This document shows positions 54,062 to 58,441 of a stretch of 64,000 bases of DNA, one piece after another. A program made the position numbers and the translations under genes. Every line of letters starts with the position of its first letter. Positions within the stretch are counted from its first letter, which is position 1. The stretch comes from Acidimicrobiaceae bacterium. Lineage in GTDB: Bacteria > Actinomycetota > Acidimicrobiia > Acidimicrobiales > Aldehydirespiratoraceae. The notes beneath the pieces are model-generated. The model worked only from the letters and a program-made list of their open reading frames with translations, did no database searches and was not told the DNA's origin. The stretch covers positions 1 through 64,000 of the forward strand of contig VYCM01000009.1 in NCBI GenBank assembly GCA_009843915.1, in the 5' to 3' direction.

Positions 54062-55216
54062 CTAGCGGCGGAGGAGTTGCTTGAGCCGGCGGACCGCGGG
54101 CGTCCACAGCCACTCGGGCTCGGTGAACCGGCGGAAGTTCTCGCCGGGCAGCCCCGTGGGGTCGTAGAAGCTCGTGTCGGTCTGCTTGCGCATCTCGCTC
54201 GTGCGCTTGAGTATCTTCAGGGTGGCATAGGCCGTTCCCTTGTGGGTCCAGCCCTGCCGCTGATAGTTCCAGTTGTCGGGGGCCAGGTCCTGCGCCGCGG
54301 CGAAGTGCTTCAAGGCGCGCTCGCTGTCGCCAGCCGCCTCGAAGTGCAGCGCCAGCTTGAACGTCGCCTCGGCCAGCAGCCTGTCGTCGTCGACGGGCTT
54401 GAGCCGCTCGGCCAGCTCCCGGCTCGACCAGACGTGCTCGCTGTCGGCGCCCCGCTCGATCCAGTCCCGGGTGGCCTCCGCGAACGAGTCGTCGCCCAGG
54501 CGGACCTTGCCCAGGCCGAACCCGACGGTGGTCTCAGCCGGGTACACCCCTTCGTTGCTGCGAACGATCTTCCCGTTCTCGTCGATCCAGGCGGCCGACG
54601 GCACGTTCACCCAGCCGAACATCGAGCTGATCTCGTGGGTCGGGTCGATGACGCACCGGTAGGTCGGCGAGGCCCGGTTGAACCACTTGTTGACCACGGG
54701 GGGACCCGCCGAGTCCTGGGCCACGCTGATCAGCTCGAACCGGTCCGGACCGATCGACTGGTAGAGCTCCTGCCAGACCGGCAGGCTGAAGCGGCAGCCT
54801 CACCAGGAGGCCCAGGTGAACAGCACCACCTTGCGGCCCCGCAGGTCCGAGAGCCTCAACGTGTCGCCATTGCACTGGGTCACCTCAAAGTCGGGGGCGA
54901 TGGCCGATTCCAGTCCCATCTGACGCACTGCGGGCACCGAGCCGAGGCTCCACACGTCGCCGTCGCGCACGTACTTCTGGCCGAGCATGTCCGCGAACCC
55001 CGAGTAGTTGAACCACACCCAATCGTCGGCGTCGGCGATCCACTCCTCACGCTTGTGCTCCGGCAGCGGCACGCAGATCTCTCCCAGGCACGCGCCCTCG
55101 GGCTTCATCTGCCAGCCGGTCGCCTCGGGGAGCTCGCCGAGCCGCACCCACAAGACCCCGTCGGCGTCGGTCCGCTGGGCGACCTCGTTTGTCTTGCCGT
55201 CTGCGAGAATGATCAC
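54062..55216 (-). CDS. ResA/TlpA-like redoxin selenoprotein with in-frame UGA (Sec139)
   Basis: One frame runs from GTG 55216 (GGAG 5-6 bases upstream) to the stop at 54062, broken only by TGA at 54800-54802. Reading that TGA as selenocysteine gives 384 residues. Residues 1-100 are a domain with ELPEATGWQMKPEGACLGEICVPLP. A redoxin domain (about 105-250) has the active site FTWASW-U-GCRFSLPVWQELY, exactly where ResA/TlpA proteins have the catalytic cysteine. A C-terminal TPR-like helical region (about 285-340) follows. This fits the WAxxUGC selenoprotein pattern known for redoxins. A SECIS-like hairpin follows the UGA. No signal peptide is seen. Convergent with the TIM-barrel gene, divergent from ridA. 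Confidence 0.85.
54769..54802 (-). promoter_or_regulatory. bacterial SECIS-like element with the recoded UGA
   Basis: Minus-strand order: UGA (54802-54800), 14 bases, CCUGCC (54785-54780), loop GGUCU (54779-54775), GGCAGG (54774-54769). The perfect 6-bp stem and GGUCU loop start 20 bases after the UGA. The E. coli fdhF SECIS has the same GGUCU in its apical loop at a similar distance, the site read by SelB. Confidence 0.75.
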
Positions 55217-55329
55217 GATTGCTCCGCAAGCGCCGATTCGGCCGGCTGGGTGTGCGCTTCGCCGGGAAATAGTAGTTGCTGGTAGGTAGTTCTACCCGTG
55301 TCAGCCGTCGGTCGAAATAGGGTGCCGGG

Positions 55330-56780: not shown

Positions 56781-56810
56781 CACAACTCCTAGACGCTCAC
56801 TTACCAGTAG

Positions 56811-57204
56811 TGGAGCTGGGGAGAATCGAACTCCCGTCCGTCAGGCGGATACCGGGCTCGCTACGACCATTCCCGAGTCTGCGGCTTGCGGCTGCCGCTA
56901 CGCCGGGTCGTGCGGATCCGAGGATCCGGCCGCCGGATCTTTCTCCGGTGTCAGCGGTCTTTGCCGGCTGTCAGCGGGTCTCTCCCCGTCGTCCACCCCT
57001 GCTTCTGGTGCCAGGCTGCAGCGGTCCGGCCCCGCGTGCCATTGCTGGTCGCGATGATTCTCGGCTGCTAGATCAGATCTGATCAGGCGGCGAGAACGAG
57101 AGCGTCGTCTTCGGCGTCTCTTTGGTTGCCCCGTTTAAGGAGTCTGAGCAACTCCGGTCGCACTCCGCGGCCTCCTGGTCCCGACGTCGAAACCGGTCAG
57201 CCCC
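56811..57204 (-). ncRNA. ssrA: transfer-messenger RNA
   Basis: 394 bases. The 5' end GGGGCUGACCGGUUUCGACG and the 3' end with T-arm GGGAGUUCGAUUCUCCC and CAGCUCCA pair as an acceptor stem (GGGGCUG with CAGCUCC). CCA is not encoded. The tag reading frame ends DDALVLAA-stop (57083-57085); if resumed at the GGC at 57128-57130 the tag is GNQRDAEDDALVLAA. Directly after the stop the dyad GATCAGATCTGATC (57071-57084) forms a helix. Rescues stalled ribosomes with SmpB, encoded 660 bases upstream on the same strand. Confidence 0.95.
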
Positions 57205-57255: not shown

Positions 57256-57870
57256 TCAGGCAGTATGACCGAGCGCCGCCTGGATCCGGTGGCGGGTCAT
57301 CCACAGCCGCAACAGCACCCCGACGGCCAGCAGGATCGCAGTCGACCCGTACACCACGATCGGCACCGCGGCCACCAACACTCCGTAGAGACCCCACTTG
57401 AAGCCCTCCAACACGGTCAGCCACCAAGTGCCGGGCGATATCCCGACCGGGGCGTAGGTGCGCCACGCCGCGATCAACGCGGGTCCCAGATACAGCCCGT
57501 TGGACAGGCCCAGCACCGTGCCCAGTACCGTCCAGCCCGCCGCCCGCTGGATAACCACGCTGGCCACTATCACGGCTGCGCCTACCAGCAGGGAGGCGCG
57601 CACACTCACACCGTTGCGGTACAGCAGGAACAGCGCCAGCCCGAAGCTGGAGATGGCGGCAAAGATCGACGGGATCGTCTCCCAGAACCCGTTCTCCACC
57701 ACGTAGGTGAGCCAGCCCAGATTGATGGTCATGCCGGCCGCGGCCCAGATGGGTGACACACCCTCGGTGCGTCCCGTGCGGATCAGCCTGGCGATCTGGG
57801 GGATGATCTGCACGAAGGTCACCCCGTTGGCGACCACCGCCACCCAGAAGGCGAGCTGGTCGCGGCTCAT
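57256..57870 (-). CDS. PQ-loop (SWEET/SemiSWEET-like) membrane protein
   Basis: 204 residues, seven helices in two repeats plus linker. The motif TFVQIIPQIARLIRTGRTEGVSP matches the PQ-loop of SWEET-type proteins; the second repeat has LYLGPALIAAWRTYAPVGISPG. Possibly a small-solute carrier. ATG 57870 overlaps the smpB stop (ATGA), so it is coupled to smpB, placing it between smpB and ssrA. Confidence 0.82.
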   Translation of the reverse strand: MSRDQLAFWVAVVANGVTFVQIIPQIARLIRTGRTEGVSPIWAAAGMTINLGWLTYVVENGFWETIPSIFAAISSFGLALFLLYRNGVSVRASLLVGAAVIVASVVIQRAAGWTVLGTVLGLSNGLYLGPALIAAWRTYAPVGISPGTWWLTVLEGFKWGLYGVLVAAVPIVVYGSTAILLAVGVLLRLWMTRHRIQAALGHTA

Positions 57871-58379
57871 GGCGGCGGGGGAGTGCGGCGCCGGCGGGCG
57901 GCGGCCATCGAGCGGGCCGCCTCGGCGTCGGCGGCGCGTTGCTGGATGTCGCGGCGGCGGTCGGACCGGGTGCGCCCCCGGGCCAGGGCCAGGGCCAGCT
58001 TGGCCTTCCCCTCGTTGAAGTAGAGGGCGAGCGGCACCAGCGCCAATCGCTCCTGGTCGACCCGGGACGCCAGGCGCTGTATCTCGCGCCGGTGGGCCAG
58101 CAGCTTGCGGACCCGGTCCGGCTCCGAGCGGAACGATGCCGCCGAATGCGAGTAGGGCGAGATGTGCAGGTTGTGCAGCCACAGCTCGCCCCGGTCGATG
58201 CGGGCCCAGCTCTCCGCGATCTGCACGTTGCCCTCCCGCAGGGACTTGACCTCGCTGCCCTGAAGCACCAGACCGACCTCGAGAGTCTCAAGGATGTCGT
58301 AGTTCCGGCGGGCGCGGCGATTGGTCGCCACCACCGACGCCCCTTCGGGGACGTCCCGACGCTTCTGCGACTTCGCCAT
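57867..58379 (-). CDS. smpB: SsrA-binding protein
   Basis: 170 residues with a slightly long Ala/Arg/Pro C-terminus. Core motifs NRRARRNYDILETLEVGLVLQGSEVKSLREG, SWARIDRGELWLHNLHISPY and GKAKLALALARGR are diagnostic. Binds tmRNA and fits the decoding centre. ATG 58379. Gene order smpB - PQ-loop - ssrA on one strand. Confidence 0.96.
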   Translation of the reverse strand: MAKSQKRRDVPEGASVVATNRRARRNYDILETLEVGLVLQGSEVKSLREGNVQIAESWARIDRGELWLHNLHISPYSHSAASFRSEPDRVRKLLAHRREIQRLASRVDQERLALVPLALYFNEGKAKLALALARGRTRSDRRRDIQQRAADAEAARSMAAARRRRTPPPP

Positions 58380-58441
58380 GCTGCTCACGGTACCGGTGCC
58401 GCCAGCAGGGGAGAAGCGACCCGGCGATAGCGTGCGCAGCG

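Follow-up and report, generated by a model that had tools for sequence, protein, structure and literature searches.

Known UGC-containing redoxins and the placement of the new locus

Prx-like (UGC-containing) selenoproteins were represented by 46 sequences in a 2008 ocean survey (PMC2398784), and UGC-containing Prx-like or TlpA-like selenoproteins are also listed in two reviews (PMC9312934, PMC13188914). Similarly to the protein described here, they contain a domain assigned to Pfam00578 or cd02966, with a UGC motif that includes Sec; however, the available portions of these accounts mention neither the clade of this protein, nor its extra domains, nor its hosts. That redoxins with a WAxxUGC motif form a recognized selenoprotein type, as the initial annotation stated, is borne out by the NCBIfam entry NF041054 (WAxxUGC_long), and, judging from the motif and the domain, the published lists probably represent this same NF041054 family. 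Literature searches returned nothing under the name WAxxUGC and nothing related for the combination of selenoproteins with Acidimicrobiia.

The locus analyzed here lies in a 64-kb stretch of a metagenome-assembled genome (MAG) contig (hereafter, the window). Its product matches NF041054 with an E value of 1e-80 and 271.5 bits, under the curated cut-off of 300, the match extending over residues 25-328 and profile positions 9-322 of 354. Another member of the same clade (L027) scores 264.6 bits, members of the sister clade (L065, L094, and L071) score 451-558 bits, and a third, broader group scores 191-237 bits. The order of domains, with an N-terminal Cys-pair domain, the UGC redoxin domain, and a C-terminal helical part, is the same as in NF041054, but the protein falls under the cut-off, and its clade has Sec throughout and differs at both the N- and the C-terminal end. 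In the tree, the branch that sets this clade off measures 1.45 changes per column, and all of its 28 rows have Sec. The clade is present in 13 of the 16 genomes of the genus, as well as in other families of the class; its hosts belong to Acidimicrobiia, and many of these are marine or associated with sponges. One genome (G269) holds both this form and the ordinary form, so that the two are paralogues. The protein is therefore of a known kind, and what is new is a divergent, all-Sec clade with an N-terminal domain that carries an invariant Cys pair. The suggestion that the whole architecture is little studied holds insofar as no function is known for it, but the family itself had already been catalogued.

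Compared with the ResA/TlpA proteins, the product of this gene shares the thioredoxin-like fold, the position of the nucleophile, and a conserved Pro residue (P206). In contrast to their CxxC motif, it has U-x-C (UGC), one residue shorter, with the second active-site position two residues later rather than three, and it also differs in its additional parts at both ends and in lacking an obvious membrane anchor or signal peptide.

Gene structure and genomic context

Direct reading confirmed that a single continuous frame of 384 codons runs on the minus strand from GTG to TAG (positions 55216-54062) and is broken by one TGA alone, at 54800-54802 (Table 1). The start and the length of the gene are identical in L010, L011, L018, L020, and others. 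The GC content by codon position is equal on either side of the TGA (0.65/0.45/0.91 upstream and 0.62/0.48/0.96 downstream), so both halves are coding on the minus strand; an antisense open reading frame (ORF) of 402 aa is also present. Alignment with ResA places the TGA at the attacking-cysteine position of the ResA/TlpA proteins (WASW-U-GC), just as had been proposed. Homologues lacking the downstream half would have counted against the selenoprotein reading, but in relatives that are uncut by a contig end the two halves of the gene are kept together.

Table 1. Coordinates of the predicted selenoprotein gene and of its features in the window
Feature	Position	Strand	Description
Predicted selenoprotein gene	54062..55216	-	384 aa; begins with GTG (55216) and ends with TAG (54062-54064)
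UGA codon, predicted to specify selenocysteine	54800..54802	-	Residue 139 of 384; motif WASWUGC
Putative SECIS hairpin CCUGCC-GGUCU-GGCAGG	54769..54785	-	Fits the bSECIS model; comparative evidence
N-terminal domain, residues 1-106	54899..55216	-	Invariant Cys43 and Cys48 in W..KP.G.C....C.P
Redoxin / AhpC-TSA domain, residues 106-226	54539..54901	-	ResA/TlpA fold; predicted Sec139, Cys141
TPR-like stretch, residues 282-315	54272..54373	-	C-terminal part; PF07719 (TPR_2)
Shine-Dalgarno-like GGAG	55223..55226	-	6 nt 5' of the GTG start; direct sequence reading

The gene seems to be solitary, placed between one convergent and one divergent neighbor. The flanking genes encode PEP hydrolase-like, UPF0261, RidA-like, and cyclase-like proteins; a search for a conserved gene neighborhood among the relatives found these flanks to be common only to very close relatives, so no partner can be named and the neighborhood provides no functional clue. 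The segment 51965-54035 on the plus strand carries the UPF0261 (Tm-1-like) gene followed by the slightly overlapping gene for the PEP hydrolase-like TIM-barrel protein. The window also contains a tmRNA (tag AEDDALVLAA) and, nearby, an SmpB-like gene (named by eye), at 56808-57204 and 57867-58388, respectively, both on the minus strand. In a plasmid collection, only partial matches to the gene were found, at <60% identity, and those listed were ordinary TlpA/redoxin genes.

Domain architecture

The central part of the protein is recognized as a redoxin by PF00578 (4e-17, 62.8 bits versus the gathering threshold of 26) and PF08534 (1e-14, 55 bits versus 26.6), both above the cut-off. In Foldseek, the nearest folds of this domain were ResA and related thiol-disulfide oxidoreductases. 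The structure model of the full-length protein has a pLDDT of only 60 and was therefore used for the redoxin part alone.

The N-terminal domain has no match in Pfam, and a Pfam scan of 26 such domains revealed no recurring family. The only residues of this domain that are invariant across the family are G34, G41, C43, and C48. The domain was modeled with a pLDDT of 80, and a Foldseek search with this model returned nothing at E<=0.001, so that no PDB entry matched it significantly. In the VIA-align comparison, it could be superimposed on the hypothetical Synechocystis protein 5h3k with a Z score of 7.3 and an rmsd of 3.5 over 86 aligned residues; this Z score is within the range that also occurs between unrelated proteins, so no kinship is claimed.

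The C-terminal region had been described as TPR-like. In the single sequence, this resemblance is weak, the PF07719 match (E=0.004, 17.6 bits) not reaching the gathering threshold of 27, but it becomes stronger with the family profile, which matches designed TPR chains.

The UGA column in relatives

Relatives of the gene came from two sets, one with a single genome per species and the other with 247 genomes of Acidimicrobiia (the class sample). At the column of the TGA, the codons in the 69 family loci (a few of which are shared by both searches, so that the same gene appears twice) are TGA in 57, TGC in 9, and TGT in 3, with no others. In the class genomes, according to tallies counted by hand from the tables, long matches of the TGA form are present in 62 of the 247, and 60 of these 62 have selA; the two TGA-bearing genomes with no detected selA (G174 and G188) are 70% and 79% complete, respectively. 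Another 12 of the 247 have the Cys form only, and 11 of these 12 have no selA. Thus, a comparison that had been suggested at the outset, whether the UGA column is Cys in genomes that do not use Sec, came out positive. The single exception (G162) contains a Cys-form family member and yet has selA and selB. The selA/selB pair of this genome (G162:C418:1666-4945) outscores every other such pair in the class sample, and it may be there by contamination or recent transfer. Among the 66 rows of the tree, the label switches between Sec and Cys at least 5 times, counting either direction.

Genes for selA were found in 168 of the 247 sampled genomes of the class. Many of the streamlined, ~1-Mb genomes of one genus (g53 of the family f27) have a selA-like gene; in those listed, selB-like matches are under the curated cut-off and no match to the NF041054-type redoxin family was seen.

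The predicted SECIS hairpin

The hairpin that follows the UGA in the mRNA has a 6-bp stem (positions 54785-54780 pairing with 54774-54769) and a GGUCU loop with the closing pair G54779-C54776; such a perfect stem with this loop occurs only once on both strands of the 64-kb window. The initial annotation described this stem and loop correctly but had them starting 20 bases after the UGA; in fact, the stem begins after 14 intervening nt, and it is the loop that begins 20 nt after the UGA. In the bacterial bSECIS model, as given in the available part of a review (PMC13188914), G is found in the first two positions of the loop, which is closed by an N1-N2 pair and lies 16-37 nt from the UGA, and the element described here fits this model. 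The hairpin in the window resembles the bacterial SECIS of the E. coli fdhF type in its GGUCU loop, its closing N1-N2 pair, and its UGA-to-loop distance of 20 nt, with no essential difference. Loops CGGGU, CGUGU, AGGUU, GGACU, and AGUUU are also found in the relatives.

Folding, which had been put forward as a check, did not single out the hairpin. The folding energy of the 42 nt after the UGA does not differ significantly from that of shuffled sequences (z of about +0.5), and with 57 nt a competing fold is favored over the hairpin, so that energy alone lends no support, but the covariation among relatives is strong. With the T of the UGA numbered 0, the two arms of the stem are positions 17-22 and 33-28, and all six of its pairs form in 39 of the 45 distinct Sec sequences versus 3 of the 12 Cys sequences; in L027, L031, L072, and L099, the stem is kept through two-sided changes. 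Positions 23 and 26, which are the third bases of a Pro codon and of a Val/Gly/Asp codon, form a Watson-Crick pair in all 49 distinct Sec sequences (G-C in 26, C-G in 18, and A-U in 5) and in 6 of the 12 Cys sequences. When this pair was shuffled, the mean was 21, or 33 with shuffling within the same amino acid, and 49 was never reached in 20,000 trials, a count that is not a probability because the sequences are related. With three types of pairs at mostly silent sites, an RNA structure is hard to avoid as the explanation. In the clade, the synonymous-site conservation of the hairpin codons is 0.96-1.0 versus the mean of 0.84, but averages over 10-codon blocks do not make the hairpin block outstanding. 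Taken together, the comparison shows a predicted SECIS element that appears to be preserved in the Sec genes and to decay in the Cys genes.

Selenocysteine machinery and other UGA-containing genes

The initial annotation expected the genes for SelA, SelB, SelD, and tRNA-Sec elsewhere in the genome, and three of the four were found. The tRNA-Sec with a UCA anticodon (66.9 bits) is on contig 61, selA (343 bits) is on contig 78, with its 3' end running off the contig, and selD (363 bits) is on contig 54 (L044, G000:C54:19225-20139). In selD, a UGA lies in frame at the catalytic position (GAGUACK), which makes the selenophosphate synthetase of this genome a selenoprotein as well. In contrast, the search of this MAG for selB found none, the best match to TIGR00475 being EF-Tu; this touches in part on a lack of Sec machinery, which had been named as a refuting condition. 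Given that selA is cut by the contig end, that the MAG is 88% complete, and that selB is present in 14 of the 16 genomes of the genus, the best explanation for this absence is that the contig is broken and the MAG incomplete. In the genus, selB is mostly within about 200 bases of selA, with a few cases of a 1-2-kb gap or a location on another contig, and in most of the genomes listed for the class it directly follows selA.

The same genome contains other genes with an in-frame UGA that belong to selenoprotein types already known, among them three loci of the UGSC family (L121, L122, and L123, on contigs C16, C115, and C78 of G000, respectively) with one in-frame TGA each; the UGSC motif could be read directly in L122 and L123. 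There are also two Prx-like loci with the TGA in a TAGU context and one thioredoxin-fold gene with UPTC; the UGA loci with the redoxin fold are L111 (G000 C115), L117/L119 (G000 C14), and L120 (G000 C98). The Prx-like copy on C14 spans two frames, and a frameshift is possible.

Alternative readings of the UGA

The window is part of one MAG contig and TGC differs from TGA by a single base, so a misassembly, or a pseudogene with a nonsense mutation, could in principle account for the TGA in place of a true TGC or TGG codon. However, an identical TGA is present in every independently assembled relative from the clade (28 distinct rows, down to 70% identity) and also in divergent relatives from Acidimicrobiia and Chloroflexi, the codon structure shows no disruption on either side of it, and the hairpin covaries, all of which makes an error or a mutation extremely improbable. 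Equally hard to sustain is a pair of separate genes, one coding for 138 aa up to the TGA and the other for 220 aa from the GTG at 54724. Both ORFs do exist under translation table 11, but the boundary between them would run through the active site of a single thioredoxin fold, and the complete TGC/TGT relatives encode one uninterrupted protein of 337-359 aa.

The conservation of the TGA would also be expected if it were read as Trp, Gly, or Cys through a variant code or leaky readthrough. This is nevertheless very unlikely, as the TGA is replaced by Cys codons only, and nearly always in genomes that lack selA; tRNA-Sec, selA, and selD are encoded in the genome; TGA is found at the catalytic Cys positions of the SelD, UGSC, and Prx-like genes as well; and the SECIS element covaries. 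By far the preferred reading is that the gene encodes a selenoprotein in which UGA is read as selenocysteine in the redoxin active site, and on the comparative sequence evidence this is almost certainly the case.

Predicted function

In the selenoprotein, SelB loaded with Sec-tRNA(UCA) would bind the hairpin past the UGA, leading to the predicted insertion of Sec at position 139. The Sec139 selenolate could then attack a disulfide or a peroxide-type substrate, Cys141 would most likely resolve the intermediate as an Se-S bond, and the Cys43/Cys48 pair would most likely relay electrons, resetting the Sec139 center. The order of these events and the type of the substrate are suggested by the fold and the conservation of residues; the roles assigned to Cys141 and to Cys43/Cys48 on the same grounds have an even chance of being correct. 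Most likely, the protein is an oxidoreductase of the selenol/thiol type whose active site is UxC. It can be expected to reside in the cytoplasm; no signal peptide was recognizable when the protein sequence was inspected by eye.

A more tentative proposal, which at present seems rather doubtful, is that the clade represents a functionally separate selenoenzyme, in which a redox or metal center formed by Cys43/Cys48 would exchange electrons with Sec139-Cys141 within one polypeptide, and which would have been kept or spread in its all-Sec form in Acidimicrobiia alongside the ordinary paralogue.

Implications

The annotation of this gene is corrected by the current analysis, as ordinary gene calling would split it in two. 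With selA in more than two-thirds of the sampled genomes, the members of Acidimicrobiia are frequent users of selenocysteine. The replacement of Sec by Cys is called rare in prokaryotes in the available part of one review (PMC13188914); in this family, Sec and Cys were exchanged repeatedly, in line with the presence of the Sec machinery, and the case is well resolved. The part worth pursuing is the divergent all-Sec clade, together with its Cys-containing N-terminal domain.
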